Shown piece by piece: positions 10,123-36,536 of a stretch of DNA of 64,000 bases. The notes beneath the pieces are model-generated. The model was not told the DNA's origin. It worked only from the letters and a program-made list of their open reading frames with translations, and made no database searches. Where the stretch lies: positions 153,526,421-153,590,420 of the forward strand of contig JAVIAB010000051.1 of NCBI GenBank assembly GCA_032433765.1. Direction: 5' to 3'. How positions within the stretch are numbered: the stretch's first letter is position 1; every line of letters begins with the position of its first letter. Source of the stretch: Megaustenia siamemsis. Its lineage: Eukaryota > Mollusca > Gastropoda > Stylommatophora > Ariophantidae. The position numbers were made by a program, and so were the translations under genes.

Positions 10123-13100
10123 CCTCTTCTTCTTTCCTTCCTCATTTGCATTTCAGCGTCGAGGGGAGATATAATTTGCGGTCTTTTGCTCTTCTGTTCG
10201 CCTCTGCTGCTGTTATGTTTCCTAGTGCTTCTAATATTCCATCGATCTATCTTTTTTGTGGTCGACCCTTGGGTCTGGTGTTCTCACAACGTTTGTTGAA
10301 AGCTCGTTGTGTTGTGTTTTGTTCTTTCTGCCTTGTCCCGTGGCCAAACCATTTTATCTGTTGTTTCCTTATATATTCTATGGCGGGGGCTATTCCTAGC
10401 TTTTTTCTCAGTTCTACATTTCTGATCTTACCTCTCAGACTGTTTCCTGTCATTCGTCGAACATATTTCATCTCTGTAGAGGTTATTTTCTTATTGTTCT
10501 TGCATCTAGGGTCCAGGCATTGGTAGCACAACGCTGGGATGAAGATTGTATTGTATAGTGCTCGTTTTGCCTCCAGAGTTATTTCCTTGTTGGACAATAG
10601 TGGTGATAGCTGTCCAATGATTTGACAAGCTTTGTTGGATCTTGATTCTATCTCTGCAGTTTGAGAATTATTGTTTGTCATTAGACTTACTATGTATTTG
10701 AATTCCTCTACTTGTTTTAGTTGTCTGCCTTCTATAGTTATGTTGATGTTCTGTTTATTTTATGCGACATTCATGACTACTGTTTTGTTGATGTTTTTCA
10801 TGTTGTATTTTGTGCCTGAGATGTTGAGTTTGTTTAAGTGTTCTTGTAGGTCTTCTATTGTTTCATGTATTAGTGCCTGATCGTCTGCAAATAAAAGCTC
10901 GTTGATCTCCTCTGTCTCTGATTGGTTGGCTAGCTTGCATATATGGTCCATGTATGTAATAAACAGTAGGGGGGATAGTACGCACCCCTGTCTTACACCT
11001 GATCTAACTTCGAAGTGGTCCATGTAGCCTGCTGCTGTTCTGAACCTGCAGCTGCTGTTGATGTAGAGACTTTTAATAAGGTTGGTTAGATGTTGGCTTA
11101 CTCCATATGTTGTTAGTATATCCCACAGTTGTTCTCTGTTTACTCTGTCGAATGCTTTTGCCTGGTCAATGAAGGCTATGTATACGTTTTGATTGTGTTC
11201 TGTCGTTTTTTCTGCGAGCTGTTTTAATGTGAATCAGTACATTCTCTGTTTTTTTCGGAACCCCATTTGAGAATCGCTTAACTGTAGTTCTATTATTGGT
11301 CTCAGCCTTTTTTCCAAGATTTTGGCGTATAGTTTCCTACATGGCAGAGAAGAGATATTACCTCTGTATTGATTGCAGTCTCTTTTGCTACCTTTCTTTT
11401 TCCATATTGGTATGATGATTGCCTGTTGCAAGTCTTCTGGGGCTTGTTGTTGGTGCCATGCTGCATTAAATATTCTGTGCAGCCATTGCACTCCTGTTTC
11501 TCCTGCTGCTGCTATTATTTTTATTGGGATGTTATCTATCCCCGGTGCTTTATTTCTTGGTGCATTTTTGATTATTTCTTCAATTTCCTCTTTCATGATG
11601 TTGGGTTCAGTATTTGTGAGTTCTAGCGTGGTTTTTGTTGTCTTATTGGTAGTCGGTATGTTTAACAAGTCTTCAAAATATTCTTTCCATCTCTGTTGCA
11701 TACATTGGTTATTTCATATTGGCTGTCCGTCTTTGTCATTTATCAGCTCAGTAGGATCATGGTTTTCTTTTCTTGCTCTTGTGGCTTTTACTGCTTTGTA
11801 GAAATCTCTTGTGGCTGTCTTGAAGTCTCTGCTTATGTTTTGTCCGAATTCTGTCCAATTCTTTTGTTTAGCTTCTTTGATAAAAATGTTAACTCTTTTT
11901 CGAACTAAGGCATATTTTTCATATTTTTCTTGTTTCTTGTTCTCCCTCCAATTTTTAAACAGTTTCTTCTTTTCTTTAATTGCTTCTCTGATTGTTTCGT
12001 TCCACCACGGGGTGATCTTTTTCCCTTCTCTTGTTCTTAGCTTCGTTCCACAAACTGTTTTAGAGATGTTGGTTACTGTTTCTTTAAATTGTTTCCACTC
12101 TTCTTCTACTGTGCATACTTCGTTAGGGAGTTTCTTGAATTTCTCTGTTAGTTTTTCTTCTAGGGTTTTCATTGTTTCTTGATCTTTTAATTGTTTTATT
12201 TGTATTGTCTGTTCTTTTCGCTTCTTTTGTTTGTTTCCGTATATTCTCTTTATTTTTGGCTGTCTTAGTGTGATCATAACCATCTTGTGATCCGTGTCAT
12301 CTGTAATATTTGGAATTGCTCTACTGTCGGTTACTCTTTTCTTGTTCTGTTGTCTTGTTAGTATAAAATCTATCTGGCTTCTGCATGTTGTGTCATTCCA
12401 TTTGTACCAGGTGTATACTTGCGACTCTCTGTGGTTGAAGAATGTGTTGGTGATAAATAAATCGTTTTGATTGCATAGTTCCAGCAGTCTGCTTCCGTTT
12501 TCGTTTATTTCAGCTGTTTTATCACCAAAGGGTCCTAAGATATCTCTGTTCTCACTGTTGCGTTTCCCAAGCCTTCCATTAAAATCTCCCATCACTAACA
12601 TGTCGTCGCTTTCGTCAATCTTGTTAATAATTTCACTCAATGTGTCGTAGAATTCTTCGCTGTCTTTTTCCTTGTTGTTGCATGGTGCATAGATTTGAAT
12701 GTAATTTGTTCTTCGATCGTCTTCTAGTAGTTTAATTGTGATAATGCTTTCTGAATGGTATTTTATTTCTAGAATGTTCTTTGCGTGTTCTGGGTCGATG
12801 ATAAAACCTACTCCATGTGTTGCTCTTTCTGTGTTGTCGACTCCTGAGACTATTTTCGTGTAGTTCATGTGTGTTTTCTTTATCTGTTGTCCTTTTACTC
12901 TGGTGTTCGCTAATCCTTGTATTTTAATTTTCCTTTTAGTCATTTCTTCTATAAGTTCGATTTCTTTATTTTATATCCCGCATACATTTATCGTTGCTAC
13001 TTTATGTTTATCTATTTCCATCTTCTGTGTATTTCTCTGAGCATAAAAAATGTATCCCTTACTGACTTGCTGAGTCAGTCGTAAGGGCTTAACTTAAGAA

Positions 13101-13325: not shown

Positions 13326-14711
13326 AATGCATACATCTATTCAATAGACCAGTTAAATGCGTACATCTATTCAATAGACCTGTTAAATGCGTACATCTTT
13401 TCAATAGACCTGTTAAATACGTACGTCCATTCAATAGACCTGCTAAATGCGTACATCTATTCAATAGACCTTTTAAATGCGTACATCTATTCAATAGACC
13501 TGTTAAATGCGTACATCTTTTAAATAGACCTGTTAAATGCGTACGTCTATTCAATAGACCTGCTAAATGCGTACATCTATTCAATAGACCTGCTAAATGC
13601 GTAAAGCTGTTCAATAGACCTGATAAATGCGTACATCTATTCAATAGACCTGCTAAATTCGTACAGCTGTTCAATAGACCTATTAAATGCGTACATCTAT
13701 TCAATAGACCTGCTAAATGCATACATCTATTCAATAGAACTGCTAAATGCGTACATCTATTGAATAGACCTGCTAAATGCGTAAAGCTGTTCAATAGACC
13801 TGATAAATGCGTACATCTATTCAATAGACCTGCTAAATTCGTACAGCTGTTCAGTAGACCTATTAAATGCGTACATCTATTCAATAGACCTGCTAAATGC
13901 ATACATCTATTCAATAGACCTGCTAAAGGCGTACAGCTGTTCAATAGACCTGCTAAATGCGTACATCTATTCAATAGACCTGCTAAATGCGTACAGCTGT
14001 TCAATAGACCTGCTAAATGCGTACAGCTGTTCAATAGACCTGCTAAATGCGTACATCTATTCAATAGACCTGCTAAATGCGTACAGCTGTTCAATAGACC
14101 TGCTAAATGCGTACAGCTGTTCAATAGACCTGCTAAATGCGTACATCTATTCAATAGAACTGCTAAATGCGTACAGCTGTTCAATAGACCTGCTAAATGC
14201 GTACATCTGTTCAATAGACCTGCTAAATGCGTACATCTATTCAATAGAATTGCTAAATGCGTACATCTATTGAATAGACCTGCTAAATGCGTACATCTAT
14301 TCAATGGACCTGCTAAATGCGTTCATCTATTCAATAGACCTGCTAAATGCGTACATCTATTCAACAGACCTGCTAAATGCGTACATCTAATCAATAGACC
14401 TGCTAAATGCGTAAGTCTATTCAATAGACCTGCTAAATGCGTACATCTAATCAATAGACCTGCTAAATGCGTACATCTATTCAATAGACCTGCTAAAGGC
14501 GTACAGCTGTTCAATAGACCTATTAAATGCGTACATCTATTCAATGGACCTATTAAATGCGTACAGCTATTCAATAGACCAGCTAAATGCGTACAGCTGT
14601 TCAATAGACCTGCTAAATGCGTACATCTATTCAATGGACCTATTAAATGCGTACAGCTATTCAATAGACCAGCTAAATGCGTACATATATTCAATAGACC
14701 TGCTAAATGCG
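13326..14711. repeat. 30-bp minisatellite, left block, about 46 copies
   Basis: Units of exactly 30 bp (TGCTAAATGCGTACATCTAT plus TCAATAGACC) run without length change, so both strands stay open, but the open frames are artefacts. A common variant has CAGCTGTTC in place of CATCTATTC. A 180-bp block (13561-13740) is repeated as 13741-13920 with a few differences. The block ends exactly at the target duplication of the palindromic element. Confidence 0.97.
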
Positions 14712-14770
14712 AGTAGTATACAAGGGTCCATTTGATTAGCATTTGGCCCGTAAATTAACAAAGATATATA

Positions 14771-14810
14771 GGGCGGCGCGCGGCGCGCATAAAGCGTGCG
14801 GCGCAGGGGG
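14771..14810. repeat. GC-rich subterminal block, left
   Basis: A CG-dense tract (GGGCGGCGCGCGGCGCGC, then GCGTGCGGCGC) starts 60 bp inside the left tip and is mirrored at 27356-27395. It can form local hairpins and stands out in an AT-rich element. A role in end recognition or replication start is inference only. Confidence 0.6.
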
Positions 14811-14965
14811 AGTTAACCATGCCATTTCGTGTCGGTGACCCCGGAGGTGACGTGTTTATGTTTGGTGTAGGCTGACTTTGGAGTTCTTGAGCGATAGTGA
14901 TAGGTTAGTAGATTATACAACATCAATGAAAAACGATCAATATAAGACAGAAGACAAAGATATAT

Positions 14966-14971
14966 TTTATT
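14966..14971 (-). promoter_or_regulatory. poly(A) signal of the left PolB gene
   Basis: AATAAA on the minus strand, about 210 bp past the stop codon; mirrored at 27195-27200. Confidence 0.55.
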
Positions 14972-15180
14972 CTTTTATTATCTCAATAGGTGTATAACAT
15001 ACAGTGGATATTATATAACATTACAAACATATTCAGTACATTGAGTAAATATATAGTACAAGGATAACAATTATTTATAGCTATGTAGTTGGGTGTCTGC
15101 TTAGCTCTATGTCATAAATGAATCATAAGGGGTGAAACTGTTAGAGATTGCTGGGTAGTCTAAGCTGGTAGTGTAAAGAG

Positions 15181-18100
15181 TTAAATATCTAGAGGCGTAG
15201 TCGAGACGTTATCATCAGCTACCTTTCTTTTTATATAGAAATAGAAAAGAGCATTTCTTGTTTGACTGTAGGAAAATATAGAATTATTTAAGACTTTGAA
15301 ACCTACATTTTTCCCACCCTTGGCCTTTTGCGTGGCGAGAACCTCTAAAAACATATCTTTATCTAATTTGTTGTGTTGCTTGCTTAGCCCTTTACAACTG
15401 ATTTTATCGTAATCCCCACTACAATGGTACGTCTTACTACATAAGCTAACAAGAGCTGTCCCTTCGTACTCTAGTTTAAAAAGCCCAGGCGTTCGTTTGG
15501 TGTACGCTTTAACACCCTTACAGTTTATACAGTCTGTCTTGCTAATATGCTCATCGCAAAACTCGGCAGGAAACCAGTCTTTATATACGCTATTAAACTC
15601 ATTCCGCAACGTTGACTTAACTATGTCCTCTAGCTTAGGTGCGCTTAAAGCCAAGTATAAACTATCAGTATCTGTTTCACATAACTGAAAGTCTGACCTA
15701 TCTACAAACTTATCTAAGAACTCGAAATAAAAATCTAACATACGAAGTTTTGCATATTGATAGACGAAGAAACCGATTTGTAGGGGCAAGTCCCAAACAG
15801 TTTTCTTTTTCTCCATCTCAATTTCAAAAAGATCCTCCCCTATTTCAGTCATCTTTTTAAACCGGGAACTATTAATCATTTTCGATATCTCATCCCCCTG
15901 AACGTACGAGACAGCGCTATGATTGGCCTTATTGGTTAGAGTCTTCCCATAGGCTGAGTTTCCTAAGAGCTTCATCGTATCGCTTACTATAGATTGATTT
16001 TCGTCTAGATCACCAGCCCTCCTAGCGTCAGAAACCATTTCCCCAAACTTTTTAAAACAACTAGACGGCTGATATTCTATAACTTGATAAATTTTTGTTA
16101 CCTCCAAGCCGTGGTCTAAATACCATTTTAACAGTGGTGTTGCCAACAAAATTTTTTCCCCGACATAACTACCGATTAGAGTGCGACGAGGGGTTGACAA
16201 CAAGTTATGTTTGAGGGCATATTCACCCATAAACGGGCCAATATCATCACGCGTGACATCAATATTTTTGAAAATTGGAGTCATCTCACTGAAATCGGCC
16301 TTCAGCCGGTCGGGGACGTGTAGATCACATTCCACTAAACCAAAACATGTCCCATCTGAAACAGAAGTCAGAATCTGTTTATCACTGAGAGGGAGCCCTT
16401 CTTTAGAGTAAGAGGGTCTAGCTCTAGGGATGGCTTTAGAAAGGAAAGCCCTAATGGTTGGGTCAGACTTTTTCAGAGCCTGCCACTCACATTCCCACAT
16501 AACTTCTACTGGAACTTTTACCTCCTCGGTTAGGTAGGTGTGTATCTCACATGTTTTTTCAAACAGCTCGAACAAGGGCTTATTATTAACAGGGTTTCTA
16601 TCTTTATCTTTGGTGAGGGGACAGTCTTTGTGACCATGGTACAGACAACCATGAAAATTGTAGCCTCTTCTATTGGATTTATCCCACCCATCCACAGGGA
16701 TATTTCTAGCACCTAATCGAAACTCCCTCCCGTTAAACTGAGTTTTCAACTCCACCCCTTTTTGGTGGGCGACCCACGTTAACCACTCTCTACTTTGTTG
16801 GACATAATAGTTATCTTTTTCGACCCTAAACCCGGTCTCCATTCTTCTAATAATTGGGTAATCTGTTGGCATTGGGTTCATCAGAGCCCAAAGATACAAC
16901 GCGTTGGCATCGTAACCTTGGATGGATTTGACGACCTTTGCGCCCCTAATAAGCGTTTTGTCTACCTCGTGATACCTATGAAAAATTATAGAGGGACCCC
17001 CAACGATATTATCTCTAATCATTTTGTGTAGACTCGCCTGTTTGCTCGAACATAAACTAAACATTACACCCCTATCAACGGTCTTAAAAAGATACTTTAA
17101 ACAAACACCCGGAACCGAAATGGCGTCTTTAAAACAGTCCACACCCCGCTCCCCATAAAAGTGAACCTGCTGCTCTAAGGCTTCTAAAAAGGGGACTACA
17201 TCTTTGTTGTTATACCACACCAAAAAGTCCCTAAGTGTGGTCATGTTATTGGTCTTCCAGACCTTTTTGCACAGAGCGTACTCCTCCTTGGAAATGTTGG
17301 AATTTTTTAACGACGAATAAAACGTTTCGTGTGGGGGTAGTTCTGTCTCGTCCAACTTTTGAGGGTCGTCTATATATTCATAACAAAAGTAACCCTTTGT
17401 CTCACTAATCTTATAAGCGGCCAGATATTTACTATAGCTAAACCCGGGGGCTAGATAGTTTACTATATCTAAGAATTTTAACTTTTCTGTTGCAATACAC
17501 ATAAAGTTATTATTTCGTTTAACTATAAACTTGAACGGTTTTGGTACTTTGTAGTCTACGTCCATTTTATCTTCTTCTTCTTCTTCTACTTCTTCTTCTT
17601 CTTCTTCTTCCTTCTTCTTCTTCTTCTTCTCCTTCTTCTTCCTCCTCTTCTTCTTCTTCACCCACTTGGGCAGTGGCATCCATGAAGTGCTTTATTAAAT
17701 AAGGTTTAATGACGTTGACGTCATATTTCCCCGAGTTAAACCCTATCACTGGAAGCTCTTTTAAATACTCATCAAACCTAACTATTAGCTTGTCTTTATT
17801 CAGATCATGGAGTTGAGTAAAAATACTTTCAAACCGATCTCGCAACAACGAGTATGCCTTAGCAGCTATACCAGTGAGGTAGTCAACCATCTGACTAACT
17901 AAAACCTGTGGGTCACCCTTCGTTATGAAGCATATTGGGCCCTCCCACCCGGGGACATTTGACGCTATAGAGCAGGAGAGAGGGACGTGTTTGGCTACAA
18001 AGGTAGTCGAGTGCGTCTCTTTGGGAACATTCCTACTATCAAAGTAACATTCATAATCGAATGTCGCCCTGAATGGGTAAATAAAACACTCTGGAGTACT

Positions 18101-19555
18101 GACCCCTTCAGCGCTGATCGCGTCCCATACACTTTCAGGTGAAGAGTAAACACCACTTTTATATGTCTCTACAGCCATATCCCCATTACACGTTTTTTCG
18201 TGCCTATCCATACGCCCAAACTTTTTCCACAGTTTCCCACATTTTCCACAAGAAAAGCTTTTACTAGCCCTAGAAAGATCGTTTATATAAAAGAAGTGGT
18301 TTTTGTAAAGTAAAAGACGGAGAGTTTCATTATAACTACTTCCGCTTCTCAGAACAATACGCAAGGCTTGCTCAGTATCAAATTCAAAAATATCTATATT
18401 TAGTGCAAAACAATTTTCTAAGAGAGACATTTCAGCAAGAGTTACACCCAGAAAGTTACCTAACTTTAGAGAGGGGTTAAACTGTTTGAAAAGTAGTCTT
18501 GAAGCCTTCCTAGCATCAGTATTTGAAGTTCCTCGATGGACAGCTAGACAACGGAAGAAGCAGAGATTATCATTGTAAACTTTAGAATGGGAATCGGTTT
18601 GAAGGATATTAATACCATGATTTGATGCAATGTAGGGTGGGATATCTAGCAGACACCCTATAGGATAATCTTGAAGTTTATAAATATAAACACTCGTACT
18701 GACTAAGGCTTCTAAAGTATATTTGGTTGTCTCCCTGTTTTTATTTGCATACCCTAATATATCACTTTCATTTAATCTATCAACAAATGTTTCAAAATCA
18801 TGTCTGTTGTTAACTAACAAAGGTTTGTCTAACCCTGTCGCATTATTCGAGCTGGCGTGAAAGTAACGCAGTCCCTTTGTCTCTCTATGTCTTAAGACTA
18901 GATGATGACTATAATTCACCTTGAAACGCTTTTTCTGGCCTTGGAAAATTGGGTTTACAAGGGTCTCCCAATCTATAGGAGTATCAGGCTGATGAAATAT
19001 AGTGTACGTATCCATGTATTTGTTCCTACGTTCATGTGTTCTAATAGCTAACCAGTTGTTCTTATATATCTTCTTAATATCTTGAGGTAACTTATTTAAA
19101 GAGTCTATTTCATTAATAAGTCTTGGTCTCTTTGAGAGCTCTTGAGTCGAACTCTTTACTGCCCGCTTGCGTGAGGTTGTCGATACCAGTGGGCCTGGTA
19201 GTGTTGATGAGGGTGTTGAGTTGTCCACAGCTATGTCATGGCTAGCAAGATGCACTCGCAGATGGGTTGCTCCAGTAAAGCTTTGTTGGCAGATATGGCA
19301 GATATGTGGGTTAGCACTGGTCTCTTTTGAAGGTACATGATCTGTTGACACAGGAGTTGGTGATGCAGGAACCACTGAGGCAAGAGATACAGGATGCTCT
19401 GTCCTGATATGTCTGGCAAGGCTGTCTACTCTTGTATATACTCGTTCACAAACATTACATTTGTATTCCTGACGCCCATGTACACTAGCAACATGTCGTT
19501 TTAGGTCCCGGCTCCGGGTGAAAGTTTTGGCACAGATATGACAAATGTTAGACAT
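15181..19555 (-). pseudogene. Left-arm PolB gene, frameshifted in the GAA tract
   Basis: Mirror copy of the right-arm gene. Translation should start at 19555 (MSNICHICAKTF), directly after a splice acceptor; the upstream in-frame Met at 19636 lies inside the intron. The N-terminal two fifths (19555 to about 17640) hold four zinc fingers, an OTU-like patch and exonuclease motifs I (FDYEC) and II (FNSGKYDVN). Loss of one base-phase in the Glu-coding GAA/GAG tract at about 17610-17640 shifts the frame. The rest (about 17600 to the stop at 15181) is open and holds Exo III (YNNKD), Pol A (GYDANALYL), Pol B (KLLGNSAYG) and Pol C (TDTDS). All catalytic residues are present, and this arm lacks the right arm's 129-bp duplication. 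The shift could be natural, a sequencing error in a simple repeat, or bypassed; I cannot tell which. Confidence 0.88.
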
Positions 19556-19799
19556 CTGTAGAAAAGAAATTGAAACATTACAACTAAAGAGTAAAGAACA
19601 GTAAACATTACAAGAAAAGTAAACAACAAGATACACAAACTATCGAAATTAGGTTACAAAAGTAACACGTGGATACTAAAAAACCAACTTATCGAAAATA
19701 GGTTACTAAAATAACACGTGGATACTAAACAACCAGCTTATCGAAAACAGGTTACTAAAGTAACATACTATAGCATTAAAGAACTAAGATAACACTTAC
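19556..19799 (-). other. Intron in the 5' leader of the left PolB gene
   Basis: On the minus strand the donor AAAAG|GTAAGT is at 19799 and the acceptor TTTTCTACAG ends at 19556, directly before the ATG. The 244-bp intron contains about 2.5 tandem copies of a 58-bp unit with CACGTG. It mirrors the right-arm intron. Confidence 0.7.
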
Positions 19800-19880
19800 C
19801 TTTTATGTGTTTGAAGGCACGAGACACGTCCGGCGGCAACAACTGTAAGCGAAAGTCTGATTAGAAGCTTCACAGTCGCG

Positions 19881-19889
19881 TTATATATA
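19881..19889 (-). promoter_or_regulatory. TATA box of the left PolB gene
   Basis: TATATATAA on the minus strand, about 80 bp upstream of the splice donor, mirrored at 22105-22113. Upstream (19890-20040) lie three imperfect 45-50-bp repeats containing CTATTTTTAGTAACACTTCC. Confidence 0.6.
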
Positions 19890-20059
19890 CACGCCAGAAA
19901 CACCGGAAGTGTTACTAAAAATAGAACTGACCGCTGATGCAATACCGGAAGTGTTACTAAAAATAGCTTTTGACCGCTGACGTGATGCCCGTGGAGTTTC
20001 TAAAAATAGATTTTGACCTATGATGCAATACCAGGCGACTTTATAGGAGTTTTTCCCTT

Positions 20060-20780
20060 GACCCTTTATGAGGGGACGCCCATGAAACTGTTAAAAATAG
20101 TAAATTTAACATATAGACATACCCCAAACTTTATATTAAGCATCCCCATATCAAGAATTTACATAAAAACAAAGTTTGAAATTACTACCCCTGTACCCAT
20201 TTTTGGCGGTTACGCCCATGAAACTGTTAAAAATAGTAAATTTAACATCTAGACATACCCCAAACTTTATATTAAGCATCCCCATATCAAGAATTTACAT
20301 AAAAACAACGTTTGAAATTACTACCCCTGTACCCATTTTTGGCGGTTACGCCCATGAAACTGTTAAAAATAGTCAAATTAACACCTAGACATACCCCAAA
20401 CTTTATATTAAGCATCCCCATAACAAAAATTTACATAAAAACAACTTTTGAAATTACTACCCCTGTACCCATTTTTGATGGTTACGCCCATGAAACTGTT
20501 AAAAATAGTCAATTTACACTCTAGACATATCCCAAACTTCATTTTAGTCATCCCCATATCAAGAATTTACATAAAAACAACTTTTGAAATTACTACCCCT
20601 GTACCCATTTTTGGCGGTTACGCCCATGAAACTGTTAAAAATAGTAAATTTAACATCTAGACATACCCCAAACTTTATATAAACATCCCCAAACAAAAAT
20701 TTACATAAAAACAACTTTTGAAATTACTACCCCTGTACCCATTTTTGGCGGTTACGCCCATGAAATCGATAAAAAAATTT
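20060..20780. repeat. 136-bp tandem repeats, left arm
   Basis: About five units of 136 bp, each with GGCGGTTACGCCCATGAAAC and a CATAAAAACAAC stretch. Short open frames of 70 codons recur because each unit has a Met codon and a stop; I regard them as non-coding. The block lies between the promoter and the centre of the palindrome and is mirrored at 21225-21935. Confidence 0.92.
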
Positions 20781-20993
20781 TTTAACTTATTGGTATACCT
20801 CAAACATAACAATTTGACACTGTACCCATGTTATGAAATGTTATAGTAAAAACATCTCAACCAAAATAATTAATAGTACATACAATGTACAATGTACCCA
20901 GGTTAATGAAATCGATAAAAAAATTGAAGTTTAACCTATTGGTATACCTCAAACATAATATTTGAACGGTAAATTTCTAAAAAATCAAAAAAT

Positions 20994-21128
20994 AGTAGCA
21001 ATGTCAATTAGGAGGGTAGACCTCATATAAGGAAAAATGTGCTTCCATGAGAGGGTAGACTTTTTATATAAGGATTTAGGTGCTTATGGAAGGACATTCC
21101 ACGGTCCTAATTGACATTGTATACTACT
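20994..21128. repeat. Central 135-bp hairpin with element-like ends
   Basis: The palindrome centre begins AGTAG-CAATGTCAATTAGGA and ends TCCTAATTGACATTGTATACTACT (written here split: TCCTAATTGACATT and GTATACTACT). The last 14 bp match the outer right tip (CCTTGTATACTACT) at 13 positions; the left copy has lost TATA. The 91-bp loop (21014-21104) holds two imperfect direct repeats starting GAGGGTAGAC. Thus 14712-21128 or 20994-27454 each looks like a unit element with AG...CT ends. Confidence 0.75.
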
Positions 21129-21224
21129 AATTTTTGGTTGATTTTTTAGGCAAATTTGATACATGGGCGTGTCAAATATTATGTTTGAGGTATACCAATA
21201 GGTTAAACTTCAATTTTTTTATCG

Positions 21225-21935
21225 ATTTCATGGGCGTAACCGCCAAAAATGGGTACAGGGGTAGTAATTTCAAAAGTTGTTTTTATGTAAATTCTTGATT
21301 TGGGGATGTTTATTATAAAGTTTGGGGTATGTCTAGATGTTAAATTTACTATTTTTAACAGTTTCATGGGCGTAACCGCCAAAAATGGGTACAGGGGTAG
21401 TAATTTCAAAAGTTGTTTTTATGTAAATTCTTGATATGGGGATGACTAAAATGAAGTTTGGGATATGTCTAGAGTGTAAATTGACTATTTTTAACAGTTT
21501 CATGGGCGTAACCATCAAAAATGGGTACAGGGGTAGTAATTTCAAAAGTTGTTTTTATGTAAATTTTTGTTATGGGGATGCTTAATATAAAGTTTGGGGT
21601 ATGTCTAGGTGTTAATTTGACTATTTTTAACAGTTTCATGGGCGTAACCGCCAAAAATGGGTACAGGGGTAGTAATTTCAAACGTTGTTTTTATGTAAAT
21701 TCTTGATATGGGGATGCTTAATATAAAGTTTGGGGTATGTCTAGATGTTAAATTTACTATTTTTAACAGTTTCATGGGCGTAACCGCCAAAAATGGGTAC
21801 AGGGGTAGTAATTTCAAACTTTGTTTTTATGTAAATTCTTGATATGGGGATGCTTAATATAAAGTTTGGGGTATGTCTATATGTTAAATTTACTATTTTT
21901 AACAGTTTCATGGGCGTCCCCTCATAAAGGGTCAA
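21225..21935. repeat. 136-bp tandem repeats, right arm
   Basis: Inverse of 20060-20780: about five 136-bp units with the same order of unit variants, for example the GATGGTTACG variant at about 21510. This shows the block was copied as a whole when the palindrome formed or was homogenised. Confidence 0.92.
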
Positions 21936-22104
21936 GGGGAAAAACTCCTATAAAGTCGCCTGGTATTGCATCATAGGTCAAAATCTATTTTTAGAAACTC
22001 CACGGGCATCACGTCAGCGGTCAAAAGCTATTTTTAGTAACACTTCCGGTATTGCATCAGCGGTCAGTTCTATTTTTAGTAACACTTCCGGTGTTTCTGG
22101 CGTG

Positions 22105-22113
22105 TATATATAA
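22105..22113 (+). promoter_or_regulatory. TATA box of the right PolB gene
   Basis: TATATATAA lies 82 bp upstream of a consensus splice donor. Upstream (21965-22095) are three imperfect 45-50-bp repeats with GCATCAGCGGTCA and CTATTTTTAGTAACACTTCC, which are candidate activator sites. Transcription would start at about 22135-22140 (inference from TATA spacing). Confidence 0.6.
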
Positions 22114-22194
22114 CGCGACTGTGAAGCTTCTAATCAGACTTTCGCTTACAGTTGTTGCCGCCGGACGTGTCTCGTGCCTTCAAACACATAAAAG

Positions 22195-22438
22195 GTAAGT
22201 GTTATCTTAGTTCTTTAATGCTATAGTATGTTACTTTAGTAACCTGTTTTCGATAAGCTGGTTGTTTAGTATCCACGTGTTATTTTAGTAACCTATTTTC
22301 GATAAGTTGGTTTTTTAGTATCCACGTGTTACTTTTGTAACCTAATTTCGATAGTTTGTGTATCTTGTTGTTTACTTTTCTTGTAATGTTTACTGTTCTT
22401 TACTCTTTAGTTGTAATGTTTCAATTTCTTTTCTACAG
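22195..22438 (+). other. Intron in the 5' leader of the right PolB gene
   Basis: Donor AAAG|GTAAGT at 22194/22195; pyrimidine-rich acceptor TTTTCTACAG ends at 22438, directly before ATG at 22439. The intron contains about 2.5 copies of a 58-bp repeat (GTAACCT...TTTCGATAAG...CACGTG; E-box palindromes at 22274-22279 and 22323-22328). A spliced leader implies nuclear RNA polymerase II transcription. Confidence 0.7.
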
Positions 22439-25400
22439 ATGTCTAACATTTGTCATATCTGTGCCAAAACTTTCACCCGGAGCCGGGACCTAAAACGACA
22501 TGTTGCTAGTGTACATGGGCGTCAGGAATACAAATGTAATGTTTGTGAACGAGTATATACAAGAGTAGACAGCCTTGCCAGACATATCAGGACAGAGCAT
22601 CCTGTATCTCTTGCCTCAGTGGTTCCTGCATCACCAACTCCTGTGTCAACAGATCATGTACCTTCAAAAGAGACCAGTGCTAACCCACATATCTGCCATA
22701 TCTGCCAACAAAGCTTTACTGGAGCAACCCATCTGCGAGTGCATCTTGCTAGCCATGACATAGCTGTGGACAACTCAACACCCTCATCAACACTACCAGG
22801 CCCACTGGTATCGACAACCTCACGCAAGCGGGCAGTAAAGAGTTCGACTCAAGAGCTCTCAAAGAGACCAAGACTTATTAATGAAATAGACTCTTTAAAT
22901 AAGTTACCTCAAGATATTAAGAAGATATATAAGAACAACTGGTTAGCTATTAGAACACATGAACGTAGGAACAAATACATGGATACGTACACTATATTTC
23001 ATCAGCCTGATACTCCTATAGATTGGGAGACCCTTGTAAACCCAATTTTCCAAGGCCAGAAAAAGCGTTTCAAGGTGAATTATAGTCATCATCTAGTCTT
23101 AAGACATAGAGAGACACAGGGACTGCGTTACTTTCACGCCAGCTCGAATAATGCGACAGGGTTAGACAAACCTTTGTTAGTTAACAACAGACATGATTTT
23201 GAAACATTTGTTGATAGATTAAATGAAAGTGATATATTAGGGTATGCAAATAAAAACAGGGAGACAACCAAATATACTTTAGAAGCCTTAGTCAGTACGA
23301 GTGTTTATATTTATAAACTTCAAGATTATCCTATAGGGTGTCTGCTAGATATCCCACCCTACATTGCATCAAATCATGGTATTAATATCCTTCAAACCGA
23401 TTCCCATTCTAAAGTTTACAATGATAATCTCTGCTTCTTCCGTTGTCTAGCTGTCCATCGAGGAACTTCAAATACTGATGTTAGGAAGGCTTCAAGACTA
23501 CTTTTCAAACAGTTTAACCTCTCTCTAAAGTTAGGTAACTTTCTGGGTGTAACTCTTGCTGAAATGTCTCTCTTAGAAAATTGTTTTGCACTAAATATAG
23601 ATATTTTTGAATTTGATACTGAGCAAGCCTTGCGTATTGTTCTGAGAAGCGGAAGTAGTTATAATGAAACTCTCCGTCTTTTACTTTACAAAAACCACTT
23701 CTTTTATATAAACGATCTTTCTAGGGCTAGTAAAAGCTTTTCTTGTGGAAAATGTGGGAAACTGTGGAAAAAGTTTGGGCGTATGGATAGGCACGAAAAA
23801 ACGTGTAATGGGGATATGGCTGTAGAGACATATAAAGGTGGTGTTTACTCTTCACCTGAAAGTGTATGGGACGCGATCAGCGCTGAAGGGGTCAGTACTC
23901 CAGAGTGTTTTATTTACCCATTCAGGGCGACATTCGATTATGAATGTTACTTTGATAGTAGGAATGTTCCCAAAGAGACGCACTCGACTACCTTTGTAGC
24001 CAAACACGTCCCTCTCTCCTGCTCTATAGCGTCAAATGTCCCCGGGTGGGAGGGCCCAATATGCTTCATAACGAAGGGTGACCCACAGGTTTTAGTTAGT
24101 CAGATGGTTGACTACCTCACTGGTATAGCTGCTAAGGCATACTCGTTGTTGCGAGATCGGTTTGAAAGTATTTTTACTCAACTCCATGATCTGAATAAAG
24201 ACAAGCTAATAGTTAGGTTTGATGAGTATTTAAAAGAGCTTCCAGTGATAGGGTTTAACTCGGGGAAATATGACGTCAACGTCATTAAACCTTATTTAAT
24301 AAAGCACTTCATGGATGCCACTGCCCAAGTGGGTGAAGAAGAAGAAGAGGAAGAAGAAGAAGGAGAAGAAGAAGAAGAAGAAGGAGAAGAAGAAGAAGAA
24401 GAAGAAGTAGAAGAAGAAGAAGTAGAAGAAGAAGAAGAAGAAGAAGAAGTAGAAGTAGAAGAAGAAGATAAAATGGACGTAGACTACAAAGTACCAAAAC
24501 CGTTCAAGTTTATAGTTAAACGAAATAATAACTTTATGTGTATTGCAACAGAAAAGTTAAAATTCTTAGATATAGTAAACTATCTAGCCCCCGGGTTTAG
24601 CTATAGTAAATATCTGGCCGCTTATAAGATTAGTGAGACAAAGGGTTACTTTTGTTATGAATATATAGACGACCCTCAAAAGTTGGACGAGACAGAACTA
24701 CCCCCACACGAAACGTTTTATTCGTCGTTAAAAAATTCCAACATTTCCAAGAAGGAGTACGCTCTGTGCAAAAAGGTCTGGAAGACCAATAACATGACCA
24801 CACTTAGGGACTTTTTGGTGTGGTATAACAACAAAGATGTAGTCCCCTTTTTAGAAGCCTTAGAGCAGCAGGTTCACTTTTATGGGGAGCGGGGTGTGGA
24901 CTGTTTTAAAGACGCCATTTCGGTTCCGGGTGTTTGTTTAAAGTATCTTTTTAAGACCGTTGATAGGGGTGTAATGTTTAGTTTATGTTCGAGCAAACAG
25001 GCGAGTCTACACAAAATGATTAGAGATAATATCGTTGGGGGTCCCTCTATAATTTTCCATAGGTATCACGAGGTAGACAAAACGCTTATTAGGGGCGCAA
25101 AGGTCGTCAAATCCATCCAAGGTTACGATGCCAACGCGTTGTATCTTTGGGCTCTGATGAACCCAATGCCAACAGATTACCCAATTATTAGAAGAATGGA
25201 GACCGGGTTTAGGGTCGAAAAAGATAACTATTATGTCCAACAAAGTAGAGAGTGGTTAACGTGGGTCGCCCACCAAAAAGGGGTGGAGTTGAAAACTCAG
25301 TTTAACGGGAGGGAGTTTCGATTAGGTGCTAGAAATATCCCTGTGGATGGGTGGGATAAATCCAATAGAAGAGGCTACAATTTTCATGGTTGTCTGTACC

Positions 25401-26985
25401 ATGGTCACAAAGACTGTCCCCTCACCAAAGATAAAGATAGAAACCCTGTTAGTAATAAGCCCTTGTTCGAGCTTCATGGGTGGGATAAATCCAATAGAAG
25501 AGGCTACAATTTTCATGGTTGTCTGTACCATGGTCACAAAGACTGTCCCTCACCAAAGATAAAGATAGAAACCCTGTTAGTAATAAGCCCTTGTTCGAGC
25601 TGTTTGAAAAAACATGTGAGATACACACCTACCTAACCGAGGAGGTAAAAGTTCCAGTAGAAGTTATGTGGGAATGTGAGTGGCAGGCTCTGAAAAAGTC
25701 TGACCCAACCATTAGGGCTTTCCTTTCTAAAGCCATCCCTAGAGCTAGACCCTCTTACTCTAAAGAAGGGCTCCCTCTCAGTGATAAACAGATTCTGACT
25801 TCTGTTTCAGATGGGACATGTTTTGGTTTAGTGGAATGTGATCTACACGTCCCCGACCGGCTGAAGGCCGATTTCAGTGAGATGACTCCAATTTTCAAAA
25901 ATATTGATGTCACGCGTGATGATATTGGCCCGTTTATGGGTGAATATGCCCTCAAACATAACTTGTTGTCAACCCCTCGTCGCACTCTAATCGGTAGTTA
26001 TGTCGGGGAAAAAATTTTGTTGGCAACACCACTGTTAAAATGGTATTTAGACCACGGCTTGGAGGTAACAAAAATTTATCAAGTTATAGAATATCAGCCG
26101 TCTAGTTGTTTTAAAAAGTTTGGGGAAATGGTTTCTGACGCTAGGAGGGCTGGTGATCTAGACGAAAATCAATCTATAGTAAGCGATACGATGAAGCTCT
26201 TAGGAAACTCAGCCTATGGGAAGACTCTAACCAATAAGGCCAATCATAGCGCTGTCTCGTACGTTCAGGGGGATGAGATATCGAAAATGATTAATAGTTC
26301 CCGGTTTAAAAAGATGACTGAAATAGGGGAGGATCTTTTTGAAATTGAGATGGAGAAAAAGAAAACTGTTTGGGACTTGCCCCTACAAATCGGTTTCTTC
26401 GTCTATCAATATGCAAAACTTCGTATGTTAGATTTTTATTTCGAGTTCTTAGATAAGTTTGTAGATAGGTCAGACTTTCAGTTATGTGAAACAGATACTG
26501 ATAGTTTATACTTGGCTTTAAGCGCACCTAAGCTAGAGGACATAGTTAAGTCAACGTTGCGGAATGAGTTTAATAGCGTATATAAAGACTGGTTTCCTGC
26601 CGAGTTTTGCGATGAGCATATTAGCAAGACAGACTGTATAAACTGTAAGGGTGTTAAAGCGTACACCAAACGAACGCCTGGGCTTTTTAAACTAGAGTAC
26701 GAAGGGACAGCTCTTGTTAGCTTATGTAGTAAGACGTACCATTGTAGTGGGGATTACGATAAAATCAGTTGTAAAGGGCTAAGCAAGCAACACAACAAAT
26801 TAGATAAAGATATGTTTTTAGAGGTTCTCGCCACGCAAAAGGCCAAGGGTGGGAAAAATGTAGGTTTCAAAGTCTTAAATAATTCTATATTTTCCTACAG
26901 TCAAACAAGAAATGCTCTTTCCTATTTCTATATAAAAAGAAAGGTAGCTGATGATAACGTCTCGACTACGCCTCTAGATATTTAA
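22439..26985 (+). pseudogene. Right-arm zinc-finger/PolB gene, one frameshift
   Basis: About 1,515 codons across one frame break. Residues 5-110 hold three C2H2 fingers (CHICAKTF, CNVCERVY, CHICQQSF) and a fourth, C2HC, finger near 450 (CGKCGKLWKK). Residues 329-336 (DNLCFFRC) and about 418-426 (KNHFFYIND) resemble the Cys and His boxes of OTU-type proteases (inference). The exonuclease has D500 and E502 (FDYEC), N607...D612 (FNSGKYDVN) and Y796...D800 (YNNKD); a Glu-rich GAA tract of about 46 residues (24333-24470) sits between Exo II and Exo III. The polymerase has D897 (GYDANALYL), KLLGNSAYG at about 26194 and TDTDS at 26491-26505. This motif set is that of protein-primed family B polymerases, as in Polintons. 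A 129-bp duplication (about 25345-25602) lost one C of a CCCC run at about 25546, shifting the frame; the second part is open to the TAA at 26985. Confidence 0.9.
25345..25602 (+). repeat. 129-bp tandem duplication inside PolB
   Basis: The sequence GGGTGGGATAAATCC through CCCTTGTTCGAGCT appears twice with a 129-bp offset (43 codons, in frame). The second copy has GTCCCTC where the first has GTCCCCTC, which causes the frameshift. Absent from the left arm. Confidence 0.95.
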
Positions 26986-27194
26986 CTCTTTACACTACCA
27001 GCTTAGACTACCCAGCAATCTCTAACAGTTTCACCCCTTATGATTCATTTATGACATAGAGCTAAGCAGACACCCAACTACATAGCTATAAATAATTGTT
27101 ATCCTTGTACTATATATTTACTCAATGTACTGAATATGTTTGTAATGTTATATAATATCCACTGTATGTTATACACCTATTGAGATAATAAAAG

Positions 27195-27200
27195 AATAAA
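27195..27200 (+). promoter_or_regulatory. poly(A) signal of the right PolB gene
   Basis: AATAAA about 210 bp after the stop, followed by a GT-rich stretch (TTTGTCTTCTGTCTT). Confidence 0.55.
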
Positions 27201-27355
27201 ATATATCTTTGTCTTCTGTCTTATATTGATCGTTTTTCATTGATGTTGTATAATCTACTAACCTATCACTATCGCTCAAGAACTCCAAAGTCAGCCTACA
27301 CCAAACATAAACACGTCACCTCCGGGGTCACCGACACGAAATGGCATGGTTAACT

Positions 27356-27395
27356 CCCCCTGCGCCGCACGCTTTATGCGCGCCGCGCGCCGCCC
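27356..27395. repeat. GC-rich subterminal block, right
   Basis: Mirror of 14771-14810, 60 bp from the right tip. Confidence 0.6.
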
Positions 27396-27454
27396 TATAT
27401 ATCTTTGTTAATTTACGGGCCAAATGCTAATCAAATGGACCCTTGTATACTACT

Positions 27455-27690
27455 AATGCGTACATCTATTCAATAGACCAGCTAAAGGCGTACAGCTGTT
27501 CAATAGACCTGCTAAATGCGTACATCTATTCAAAAGACCTATTAAATGCGTACATCTATTCAATAGACCAGCTAAAGGCGTACATCTATTCAATAGACCT
27601 ATTAAATGCGTACATCTATTCAATAGACCTATTAAGTGCGTACATCTATTCAATAGACCTGTTAAATGCGTACACCTATTCAATAATCAC
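27455..27690. repeat. 30-bp minisatellite, right block, about 8 copies
   Basis: Same unit, same orientation and compatible phase as 13326-14711. It starts with the duplicated target AATGCG. Removing the palindromic element and one AATGCG gives TGCTAAATGCG joined to TACATCTATTC, a perfect unit. Confidence 0.97.
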
Positions 27691-29374: not shown

Positions 29375-29783
29375 TTGATGGAATTCTCCTACTGTTCTGT
29401 TCTCCTACTGTTCTGTTCTCCTACTGTTCTGTTCTCCTCTTTTCTGTTCTCCTCTGTTCTGTTCTCCTACTGTTCTGTTCTCCTCTGTTCTGTTCTCCTC
29501 TGTTCTGTTCTCCTCTGTTCTGTTCTCCTACTGTTCTGTTCTCCTCTGTTCTGTTCTCCTCTGTTCTGTTCTCCTCTGTTCTGTTCTCCAACTGTTCTGT
29601 TCTCCAACTGTTCTGTTCTCCTACTGTTCTGTTCTCCTCTTTTCTGTTCTCATACTTTTCTGTTCTCCTACTGTTCTGTTCTCCTCTTTTCTGTTCTCCT
29701 ACTTTTCTGTTCTCCTCTGTTCTGTTCTCCTCTGTTCTGTTCTCCTCTGTTCTGTTCTCCTCTGTTCTGTTCTCCTCTGTTCT
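29375..29783. repeat. 15-bp tandem repeat, about 27 copies
   Basis: Units such as TGTTCTGTTCTCCTC, with variants CTACTG, CTCTTT and CAACTG. The 15-bp period keeps all frames open; the resulting ORFs on both strands are artefacts. Confidence 0.95.
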
Positions 29784-30444
29784 GCTCATGGAACTAGTTT
29801 CACTGCGGTCTGGAACTCCCCATATCCTCTCCACTAAAGGCAGAGCTCCCGCCAAAGCGCGTTGGCAAAATCTCATGACAACGTCGACTACCGCGCAACC
29901 CTTACGGCGGCACAGAGGCTTGCAAAAACTAAAACGTTCGAATAAATAAGTTCATTCCTTCCAAGATTTCGACAAGTCTGACTTGGAAATAAGCATAATG
30001 AAGAAAACGGGCAAATCGCCTAGGGTAAGCATTTTTATCTTGGCTAAAAGAGTCAAAAAGAGCTACCAGCAACAAGTGCCTAGAATTGCAGCATCATTGG
30101 TGTTAAAACAGAAACAACAAAACCGAATGGATAACGAGACCAGTATCAAACTTCACAAGTGTAAAATCGTATTGAGATGATTAGTTCTCGAGGTAACAAA
30201 AGCACGAGCCAGCACTGTTCACCATACCTTGTCGCCATACCCTGTAGGAGTGTATGTCCCTCCCAATTATTGGCTCCTCGGCTCCAAATGATGAGTTCTT
30301 TAAGTGCTCCATGATACTAGGGCATATGTAACAGGGTAGCACTGACAAGTTTACATTTACATATAAATCTAGTTATATCTTTAGACGGTTTATGAGTGCA
30401 ATGTATCTTTCTATAATTTTTTTTTTTTAATTAGGATATTAATA
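29784..30444. other. unassigned single-copy sequence
   Basis: Contains a 65-codon plus-strand ORF (29983-30180) with no recognisable motif and a T-run at about 30419-30428. No call. Confidence 0.5.
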
Positions 30445-32613: not shown

Positions 32614-32800
32614 GGCTTCCGGTCGGTGTAATGGCGGACTCAGGGTTGTGTTCTCTGATTCCGTTTCAACTTTCTACATCAATTGGAGTATTTTACACCA
32701 GAATCATGTAGTTTGTTTGTAACTTTCACTGACCAGGAGGTCTATTAACCAAGATCTTCGCCGGTGCTACGGAGTTTCGTGCATCTGAGCTTGAAATTCT

Positions 32801-35800
32801 TTGGAGTATTTTCGTCTAGTGTGTGTTTGTGATCAGTGTTTACGTCGGTCTAAGATGGCCATAGGGCGCTGGGTGTGTAGTCGCTCATCGTCACTTTGTC
32901 GCTCCAGTTTCGTCGGCTCGCTGTCCTCATATAATCCGTCACAGTGCGGTTGTTTACAAACAAAGCGGCCTAAATTTAGAGCTAAGCGTGGGCGTCGAAA
33001 AAGGCAGGGAAAAAGAGCAGGGCTTCGGAAGAATCGTTGCAAGTCAGAAAGATTAGGCCTCACCAACACCCGAATTTTGTACTGGAATTGCGCCAGTGTC
33101 CGCAAGCGTGGAGGCATTTTTGAAAAGCTAATGTTTAGCTGTGATATCTTTGCTATTCAAGAAACAAGACTTGGTGATAAAAAACCTAGATATGCAGGTT
33201 TCCAAGCTTTCTTCAACAACGACCACATGGGGCTAGCAATTTTCGTGCGGCAGGGTTTGTCAGCAACAGAAGTAAATGTTTCTCAGTGGAACAGTTCCAA
33301 AATTCAACTGTTGGCAGTAAAGGTACAGTCCACGCAGCCTTTCTTGTTTGTCAATGTTTACGCCTGCAATGCTGTAGTGGGTTTTGAGGAATGGCAGTTT
33401 CTGAAAGATATTGCAAGTCTAGAAAAAAATACCATTTTCTGTGGCGACTTTAACGCAAAAGGTGCATCCTGGGGCAATACCTCAGCAAATAAACAGGGTA
33501 AGGAGCTCGAAGAAGCCATCACTACACTCGATCTCCTATGCATTAACAATGGCAGCAGCACCAGAACAGCGACTAGACCAGGTGATGAGGACAGCGCCAT
33601 CGATTTAGCACTGGTTTCCTCCTATTTCTCGACATCGTGTAAGTGGGGGGTCCTTGGTCATCATGGCAGTGATCACCTCCCGTGTAGCATCTTAATAGCA
33701 ATGGGTAGATCGAAGCAATGCAGGAGAAAAGTAAAAACTTTTCGTTACAGCTGTGCAGAAGATGATGTCATCAGTAAAGTTCGGCGCGCTAAGAGAAAAC
33801 ATCACAACAAAATAGCTACATATCAACAACCTCCATGGTGGAGCAACGAAGTGCAAAAAGTTTGGCTGGAGAAGAGACAGTCTGTCAGAGAGTGGCAAAT
33901 AGCCAAAGGAAGTTTGTTTGCGTCTCCTGATCATATTTTGTTTTTAAAAGGGATAGTACAGGAAAAGATTACTTCCTTTCAAGAAGTAGCCATGAAAGCA
34001 AAAAGTGATAAATGGGCTGAGTTCTGTGACAGGATAGGTCGTGATAAATCGTTAAAACTGTTCTGGAGGCTGCATAAAAGTATGAACGGTAAAGTGCAGA
34101 GTAAAGCAATCCCAGATTTCCAAGATGCTGATTCTATCTGGCATAAAACTGATGAAAGCAAGGGCAAGGCACTGTTGGCTCACTACCTACAGCAGTGCGA
34201 CCACAAAAATGTAGAGGAAAGAAGAGTTGTGAGAGAACATATTTCTATGCTAGTTGGTGCTGACTTAACAGATAACAGTGATTATGTCTCGGTAGAGGAA
34301 GTAAGACTCGCTTTAAAACGATCTAAGAACAGCGCCCCAGGCCCAGATGGGTTAAGATACGCGGATATCAACAACTTATCCGATTTTGACTTAGGTGAAC
34401 TGGTAAGCATGTATAATGACAGTATCAGGACTGCAATAATCAATGAAGAATGGCTACACAGCTACTTGATACCGCTGCCAAAACCAAGCAAAGACCACAG
34501 AAAAATTCAGGGCTACCGCATCATAACCAAGCAGAATACCATAGGCAAGCTTTTAGAAAAGGTAATTGCAAAGAAACTTTCTTGTTTTTTTTGAAAACGC
34601 AAACTTGTTTCCATCAACGCTTGGAGGGTATCGTCCGTGTAGAGAGACTTGGTCAAATGCTGCCGTGTTTGCTCAGGATGTTTATGAAGGGTTTCAACGC
34701 GGTTTAGAGACATGTGCTGCTGCAATAGATCTGGAGGACGCTTACAACAAAGTACCCTTTAACTTCTTATTCAACCAGCTCATAAATTTAGGCGTCAGTC
34801 CCCGCATCCTAAATTGGCTAACAGCGGCACTTTTTCAGCGCAAAGTGGTTTTTCGATCTGGTAGTTGGACGTCTGATATAATTACGATGTATCCCGGGTT
34901 ACCGCAAGGCTCACCTTTATCTCCCGTACTTTTCAATGCATACACTGTGAAAATCACAAGAGATCGGTTGGAAGGGCCAGGTCGCATTCTTTCTTATGCC
35001 GATGACATTTTGGTTTATCGACAGGGAAAAGATCGAAACAAAATAACTGCGGACCTACAATCAGAACTCAGGCGCATACAAAAGTGGTGTGACGAGGCAG
35101 GTGCCAACGTGAACCCATCAAAAGCTGAAGTAACTTGGTTCTCACTATATAACAACATCGTTAATATTGATACTCCATCTGTAGAAATGTTTTCAGACAC
35201 TTTGCCAAGATCTATGACAATGAAATATTTAGGTATTCATTTAGACCGAAGCCTTGCTTTCGTAAAGCACATTGATAACGTGATAGAGAAAGCAAAAAAG
35301 GGTCTTGCTGCTATGAAAGTAATGGCCGCTGCAGGCAGTGAACAGCGGCACCTGCATACATTATACCAGGGACTGGTTGTTTCTGTTCTAGAATACGCTT
35401 TGGCGATTCAAACTCTCAGCAAACTTCAGTTAGAGAGGCTCGAAAAAATTCAGAACGAGGCTATGCGCATTATTCTTGGCTGCACTAGAGACACGTCATG
35501 CAGAGCGTTAAGATACCTACTTGACATTCCAACCATAGAAAGTAGAATCGAGTTGTGTAGAGCACGCGCTTTTCTGAACATTCTTGCTGATGAAAGACAT
35601 CCTTTAAATTCTGTAGCGCTAGCGCCAAAAGGTGATAGACTCGAGCGAGGCCAGTCGTGGATGGGCAGGGCAGAGAAATCCATTCAAAAGGTGTGCATGC
35701 TAAATGACTTGCAGCGTGGAGAAGAATGGCGGCAATGGCCAAATGACATTTCTACAATTACTATCAAAGTCTGCATAACACTGAATAAAGAATGTAGAAC

Positions 35801-36536
35801 GATGAATCCCAAGGTTGTAGAGGATAAGATTCAGGCCTTAATCAAAGAAAACGTAACGTCCGGCAATATTATTATCTACACAGATGGTTCGGTTGTACGA
35901 AATAAACGATGTTCATGGGCATATACAGCGCAGGTGAAAGGGCAAATGGTGCATGAGGATAGTGGTGCTTTTTCGCAAACAACGAGCAGCATGACAGTGG
36001 AGGTTTTAGCAGTCACTAAGGCAATGACATGGCTCGAAACACAGTCTTTCGCAGGAGTATGTTTTCTCAGTGACTCCATGAGTATGCTTAAGAAGGTTGA
36101 GGCTGGGTGGAGGCGAAGAGAGTGGTTGAAGTCCCTGCAGCTGTCAACTTTAAAAGAAATCGTCTTCATCTACGTACCTGGCCACTCTGGAGTGCAAGGG
36201 AACGAACGAGCTGACAAGCTTGCTGAAAAGGCTAAAATTTCAGATGGCAACGCCATGGACAACGCGGACATTTTACACGCAATCCGCGAGGCGGGAAGAG
36301 TAGCAGACTCTCGAGACGACAAGGATTCAAACGCAATGGCGAGACTAACGCATAGTCGCGTAAGGCTTGGCACAGCTAAGAGCGAACATTTTTCAGGACG
36401 CCAGAGGTGTATGGTTAACCAACTGCGAACCGGCACGATCAGCCGTCACACACTTGTGAATTTACTCGAAAGGAAATCGGAGCACTTATGGGTATGCCCC
36501 TTGAGCAAGGAGGATGATCTTTCGACTAATGACTAA
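32801..36536 (+). pseudogene. LINE ORF2: endonuclease, RT, RNase H; one frameshift
   Basis: A first frame of 597 codons from ATG 32801 (32858 is an alternative start) holds a basic N-terminus and an APE endonuclease: TRILYWNCASV, FAIQETRLGD, CGDFNAKGASWG and GHHGSDHLPC. The RT begins APGPDGLRYADINN. At about 34583-34590 a run of eight T shifts the frame; the second frame continues FENANLFPSTLGGYRPCRE, IDLEDAYNKVPFN, GLPQGSPLSPVLFNAYT and SYADDILVY (34992-35018). RNase H follows: YTDGSVVRNK, MTVEVLAVTKAM, LSDSMSMLKK and VPGHSGVQGNERADKLAEKA. It ends DDLSTND. No other stop is present over about 1,235 residues, so the copy may be intact if the T8 run is a base-calling error. Confidence 0.9.

Follow-up and report, generated by a model that had tools for sequence, protein, structure and literature searches.

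Architecture of the palindromic element

The stretch analysed here, referred to as the window, is a 64,000-nucleotide segment of the gastropod Megaustenia siamemsis (assembly GCA_032433765.1, contig JAVIAB010000051.1, positions 153,526,421 to 153,590,420 of the forward strand), and it contains a 12,743-bp palindromic element with a family B DNA polymerase gene (PolB) in each arm. The element spans positions 14712–27454 of the window (features cited without a strand are unstranded) and is composed, in the arm-to-arm alignment, of a left arm (14712–20965, + strand) and a right arm (21172–27454, − strand) joined by a 206-nt spacer (20966–21171). The arms differ by 11 substitutions over 6,108 aligned bases (99.8% identity), plus insertions and deletions (indels), and chance is no explanation for inverted identity over multiple kilobases. 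The alignment bears out the first-pass annotation, which had described two arms of about 6.2 kb carrying the same gene in opposite directions with mirrored positions summing to 42166; the sum is exact for the tips (14712 + 27454) and for the stop-codon ends of PolB (15181 + 26985), and the mirror register drifts toward the centre because the arms carry indels. The length differences include a 128-bp tandem duplication found in the right arm only (25474–25601, + strand), a GAA tract whose length differs by 44 bp, and a 146-bp surplus in the left arm near the centre (20760–20905). Tandem repeats of 136 bp are present in both the left arm (20076–20765) and the right arm (21226–21917).

The central spacer is an imperfect hairpin, or inverted repeat, and as single-stranded DNA is predicted to fold 8.7 standard deviations better than shuffled versions of itself (z −8.7). 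Within it lies a mini-element (20994–21128) positioned between inverted tips resembling those of Mavericks (Polintons), of which the left is degenerate (AGTAG) and the right reads GTATACTACT; counterparts are found in other copies, described below. A separate insertion of this mini-element was considered and rejected, since no direct 6-bp duplication flanks it in the window.

The PolB gene

Each arm carries one PolB gene, reading from the centre outward. The left gene is represented by an N-terminal open piece with three C2H2 fingers and exonuclease motifs (17567–19639, − strand) and a C-terminal open piece with the polymerase motifs (15181–17691, − strand), and the right gene by the corresponding N-terminal (22355–25636, + strand) and C-terminal (25498–26985, + strand) pieces. 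The left frame is lost within an acidic repeat, while the right is disrupted by the 128-bp duplication; neither lesion is present in the other arm, so the arms probably arose from an intact gene. PolB was the only gene represented among frames of at least 100 residues lying wholly inside the element, with no integrase, capsid, ATPase or protease frame among them.

The PolB product combines three C2H2 zinc fingers with exonuclease and polymerase motifs of family B. The Pfam model DNA_pol_B_2 gave no score on the window pieces, and searches of PHROGs and of PDB sequences gave nothing useful for PolB. Among the best 120 of 2,812 relatives, at 48–64% identity, many bear PF03175, and the named ones include proteins of gastropods, a starfish and a lancelet. 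The C-terminal piece was also modelled (mean pLDDT 77.7), and the six best PDB matches to this model are all chains of phi29 polymerase, with E-values of 1.6e-8 to 3.6e-6 and modest TM-scores to the query of 0.32–0.36. The motifs, the PF03175-bearing relatives and the phi29-like predicted fold together support the PolB label. The model of the N-terminal half gave only zinc-finger matches, none with E < 0.001, and we therefore make no claim of a terminal-protein or OTU-like domain, such as those reported for related polymerases in the excerpted text of PMC12721341. Viral contigs scanned for relatives gave none, and among the prokaryote contigs scanned relatives were found in only two, both filed under an endosymbiont of Escarpia laminata.

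Insertion into a satellite array

The element interrupts a 30-bp satellite array (13326–14711 and 27455–27685, both + strand), which runs in the same orientation on both sides. It is flanked by a direct 6-bp duplication, AATGCG (14706–14711 and 27455–27460), and when the satellite register is followed across the element a 6-bp overlap leaves 8 mismatches in 120 positions, compared with at least 60 for all other overlaps from 0 to 29. The element ends in AGTAGT//ACTACT, which is of the Maverick type; the left tip is a 28-bp pattern starting AGTAGTATACAAGGG (14712–14739, + strand), and the right tip (27427–27454, − strand) is its exact inverse. The window palindrome was thus inserted as one unit. 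Vertebrate Mavericks likewise make 6-bp duplications, and (AGT)2//(ACT)2 is the commonest type among their ends, as given in the excerpted text of PMC8097293.

A family of palindromes in the genome

The assembly (155 contigs, 2.59 Gb) contains 581 matches to the 28-bp tip with at most two mismatches, 295 forward and 286 reverse; the reversed control gave none in either direction. Among the first 100 or so of these matches, from which pairs were drawn, tips pair as + followed by −, 6.4–14.8 kb apart, and 41 pairs were taken besides the window (42 in total). Twelve of the 42, the window included, were tested with the DNA at both tips. A perfect 6-bp duplication encloses all twelve, compared with agreement in 0 of 132 mismatched combinations; the flanks outside the tips show no mirrored similarity in any of the twelve; and in 11 of them the arms inside the tips differ by 0–5 substitutions over about 1.4–1.5 kb. 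PolB runs through the sampled stretch in five pairs, is represented by its last 125 residues only in six, and is absent from one. In one subfamily of the palindromes (L033, L035, L049, L051, L055 and L061) PolB is cut to its last ~125 residues and joined to other sequence; these copies are mobile but presumably rely on PolB supplied in trans.

A PolB query returned 10,293 candidates in the genome, and the 57 that were scored are all at least 96% identical. Wherever two of these 57 lie within 15 kb of each other they are divergent (10 of 10 pairs), and the other 37 have no partner among the matches listed. A recognised tip is present at 22 of 30 fetched PolB loci, and of four further PolB pairs with both loci available, three have recognised tips, each of the three with a duplication. 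A one-off event was accordingly rejected, given the 581 tip matches, the multiple PolB loci and the recurrent divergent pairs. The first-pass annotation had proposed a search for other palindromic copies, of which there are many, and for 6.4-kb monomers, for which the single test was negative: L079 (C47:25928900-25929270) is a central mini-element with arm sequence on its left side only, for which a clean monomer predicts a tip directly after AATTTT a few kilobases leftward; none of the 8 matches to that pattern lies there, and the reversed control gave 18 matches. In a separate observation, CG occupies the middle of the duplication at 6 of the 12 tip pairs and at two further elements introduced below (CACGTG and GACGAG), hinting at a common integrase preference.

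Partner arms are copied from each other

Arms were compared over their first ~847 bases in eleven elements, with L038/L039 excluded for having different sequence there. Partner arms differ by 0–2 bases, compared with a median of 35 in the 220 comparisons between elements; in 21 of the 22 arms, the partner is at least as close as any other arm. Over 2,373 bases of PolB in four pairs, partners differ by 1, 0, 1 and 3 bases, while the nearest other copy differs by 43, 43, 52 and 3, the last being a recent sibling; median differences to other copies over the same bases are 67–71.5. Simple inheritance of the palindrome would make the two arms of an element date back to the origin of the family. Instead, the arms have been copied from each other.

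PolB is under purifying selection, with a median ratio of nonsynonymous to synonymous change (dN/dS) of 0.114 in the 416 of 435 pairs with dS > 0.02 among the best 30 of the 57 matches; one of these 30 copies has an internal stop. The low ratio indicates that PolB matters to the lineage.

Centres of other copies

In ten other copies the central 2 kb was examined. Mirrored arms of at least 250 bp lie near the centre in seven of the ten, and counterparts of the window spacer in eight, one of them just 50 bases long. Maverick-like tips flank the small central element on both sides in the window, in L063 and in L065–L069; in L071 and L072 the element is visible on one side only. Three further small tip pairs include two clear examples (L080 and L081) flanked by mirrored arm sequence. 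The central tip of L063 is the same as the tip of a Maverick in this genome over the 36 bases shown. In L067 the centre is present twice, in mirror image, inside a 931-bp palindrome at 98% identity, which looks like a second fold-back upon the first.

Mavericks and a second type of palindrome

The genome also carries Mavericks themselves. One of 14.6 kb (C41:68842749-68857345) has the duplication GACGAG, terminal repeats of ~490 bp, and a PolB at its left end that reads outward and is 67% identical to the window PolB, followed on the opposite strand by an ATPase, an integrase and a putative capsid gene. Since the position and direction of PolB match, the window arm corresponds to the PolB end of this Maverick. 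Searches of the genome returned 3,936 candidates for the putative major capsid protein, of which 89 were scored and listed, and 4,140 for the integrase, of which 108 were scored and listed; integrase-coding Mavericks are abundant in this genome. None of the 89 capsid and 108 integrase matches in these small samples falls inside the 42 tip-to-tip intervals.

One palindrome of a different kind was found (C8:47232381-47244112; L073–L075), and no second pair like it is present among the 89 listed putative major-capsid matches. It is enclosed by the duplication CACGTG, has arms that are 99.0% identical over 4,015 columns, and carries putative capsid genes and a protease in both arms, with one integrase in a 1.6-kb spacer. 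It corresponds to the integrase and capsid end of a Maverick, and its right arm begins inside a putative minor-capsid gene, as expected of a fold-back junction.

The names minor capsid, PW and major capsid are putative because they are assigned solely by the published gene order of integrase, minor capsid, PW, major capsid and protease, as given in the excerpted text of PMC8097293. The two prokaryote contigs mentioned above, L001 (QGON01000029.1) and L002 (QGON01000009.1), binned as an endosymbiont of the tubeworm Escarpia laminata, were observed to carry Maverick genes; judged by their closest named relatives, which are tubeworm proteins, they are presumably host DNA in the bin. L001 is a Maverick: it encodes a PolB related to that of the window (PF03175), an ATPase of the Adeno_IVa2 type and an rve integrase that bears a chromodomain, and one of its frames matches adenovirus protease below threshold. 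Its frames between integrase and protease have no match in Pfam, NCBIfam or PDB, and the named relatives of its capsid-like frames among the best 120 are only 'hypothetical' or 'uncharacterized'. PolB points in the same direction as the other genes in L001 and is convergent on them in L002.

Surrounding DNA

Elsewhere in the window, frames for reverse transcriptase and endonuclease of the non-LTR (long terminal repeat) retrotransposon type occur at 10763–12970 (−), 32795–36533 (+), 48642–49706 (+) and 57183–59366 (−). Long tandem arrays occupy 576–3282, 29384–29784, 36536–39077, 41865–46900 and 62463–64000, so the palindrome sits in repeat-rich DNA.

Origin of the palindrome

We interpret the window element as a left-end snap-back derivative of a Maverick, belonging to a large amplified family, and put the probability of this reading at roughly 0.7; these odds derive from the PolB palindromes. 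In the founding event, protein-primed copying of a Maverick would have started from the PolB end and the strand would have halted shortly after PolB, where a small inverted repeat lies between Maverick tips. The 3′ end of that strand would then have folded back at the hairpin and been extended along its own strand as far as the tip, yielding a duplex half-genome mirrored between two genuine Maverick ends. In the ensuing life cycle, PolB, either the element's own or a sibling's acting in trans, may replicate the element from either tip; copying round the hairpin would rebuild one arm from the other, such that new insertions start with identical arms, and a Maverick integrase in trans would insert the product, making the 6-bp duplication. 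The satellite would thus keep a polymerase and borrow an integrase, and its PolB-deleted relatives would borrow both. The C8 palindrome supports fold-back copying, and both Maverick ends appear to have undergone it; this fits the earlier suggestion of a fold-back dimer from protein-primed replication, within which the fold-back itself would still be a deduced step. Snap-back in protein-primed replication is the most economical account. We rate at even odds the broader proposal of a self-sustaining lineage with a hairpin genome, a capsid-less and integrase-less Maverick satellite with a selected PolB and a palindrome regenerated every cycle by copying round the central hairpin, living among Mavericks that routinely shed integrating snap-back half-genomes, some of which can turn into independent parasites; palindromes of the opposite Maverick end would then have the same origin.

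Several points weigh against this reading. We infer the snap-back, the priming, the transposition and the integrase in trans from the observed structure, recurrence, duplications and homogenised arms, and whole arms were observed in the window element only. Not every copy is a full palindrome: L064 and L070 lack both the common spacer and any inverted repeat lying no more than 1 kb from the middle, L063 has the common spacer but its array is in one orientation, and in the twelfth tip pair (L033/L034) the arms are identical for 1 kb and then diverge. The window's own arms are uninformative about homogenisation, differing by 1 base from each other and by 0–1 from the nearest other element, because their nearest relative, L047/L048, is equally close. 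Eight of the 30 PolB loci have no recognised tip, no Maverick with exactly the window's tip sequence was found, and the absence of integrase from the tip-to-tip intervals rests on 108 scored of 4,140 candidates. The C8 palindrome has 88–92% identity in its outer parts and 99% in its inner arms, where a simple snap-back predicts equal values. Finally, the inherited centre points to a single founding fold-back rather than a new one per jump.

The inherited centre would suit an ancestral palindromic Maverick derivative that moved whole and whose arms were kept alike by chromosomal gene conversion, in the manner of sex-chromosome palindromes, whose arms are maintained in this way; conversion would likewise make partner arms closer to each other than to other copies. 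We nevertheless consider this unlikely, as the arms are already identical in young copies, whose 6-bp duplications are perfect at 12 of 12 sites, and the doubled, mirrored centre of L067 is easier to explain by fold-back copying. Three coding differences in the window also look derived per arm (15245 and 18157 in the left, 17286 in the right), which is expected of independent decay since insertion, though still compatible with occasional conversion. A further route, in which conversion lengthened the terminal repeats of an ordinary Maverick until the two joined and the genes between them were lost, could have L033/L034, mirrored for only ~1 kb, as a possible intermediate, and fits the missing central inverted repeat of L064 and L070; yet one hairpin at the fold point is common to most centres examined and the PolB-deleted copies are mirrored as well, making this route highly improbable.

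The divergence of all ten listed PolB pairs could also be produced by two elements inserted head to head, but a single duplication encloses the whole unit, none surrounds a single arm, and the arrangement recurs; a chromosomal inverted duplication would mirror the flanks too, yet the mirroring ends at the tips. Both are refuted for the 12 pairs with flanks, and we regard them as having only a minimal chance of being correct overall. Long inverted repeats are a known type of assembly error, and an artefact from hairpin reads would give such a structure, but the satellite continues in the same direction past the element with a 6-bp overlap, the 12 tested pairs have different duplications and unmirrored flanks, and the arms carry private differences. 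An artefact was rejected on the unmirrored flanks and the duplications, and its probability is close to nil.

Comparison with known systems

A search of the open-access literature found no palindromic Polinton or Maverick in titles or abstract openings. Maverick replication has so far been inferred mainly from gene content, and half-genomes of both ends, integrated after snap-back, would amount to fossil replication intermediates with their fold-back points preserved, which would support protein-primed, self-priming copying. The family would also indicate that a virus-like transposon can spawn a satellite keeping the polymerase only, a transposon counterpart of a defective interfering genome, here with tips numbering in the hundreds within a single genome. 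Like LTR pairs, the arms of each insertion may, through their identity, serve as an internal clock. Palindromes are probably easily discarded as assembly errors, and similar elements may hide in other genomes.

The window element shares with Mavericks the 6-bp duplication, the (AGT)2//(ACT)2 ends and a family B polymerase of predicted phi29 fold, but it has no integrase, ATPase, protease or capsid frames and carries PolB twice. Its terminal inverted repeats, at ~6.25 kb, compare with 46–1,447 bp in the vertebrate Mavericks, of 12.7–24.6 kb, described in the excerpted text of PMC8097293. With Maverick ends, duplication and polymerase but no integrase or capsid genes, we file it as a Maverick-derived satellite and not as a Maverick. 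The first-pass annotation had alternatively suggested a distinct class of PolB-only element; this fits as well, since the element belongs to a multi-copy family, and the anatomy of that family matches the PolB end of the C41 Maverick.

Non-autonomous DNA transposons have the same ends as the autonomous elements whose enzymes they need, and the PolB-deleted copies would be of that sort. The family differs in that many of its members retain a PolB under selection and in that the palindrome is far larger than a miniature inverted-repeat transposable element. Foldback (FB) and other long-inverted-repeat transposons are mobile elements consisting mostly of inverted repeat; the likeness to Foldback is one of general description, and the palindromes described here differ by their Maverick-type PolB and Maverick ends.

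The snap-back subgenomic (defective-interfering) genomes made by adeno-associated virus (AAV) include, in the excerpted text of PMC8235507, a 3′ type with head-to-head promoters. As in the window element, part of a genome is mirrored round an internal fold-back and retains a true viral end; the paired promoters correspond to the two PolB genes, which likewise stand head to head. The window element has the corresponding features, namely one genome end mirrored with genuine tips and a single-copy central hairpin; arm equality extends over the whole length in the window and holds in 11 of 12 sampled ends, while the C8 palindrome matches at 99% inside and 88–92% near the tips. The AAV snap-backs differ in belonging to a parvovirus with hairpin ends and in being found in particles, whereas the palindromes are integrated, flanked by duplications and amplified in the genome.

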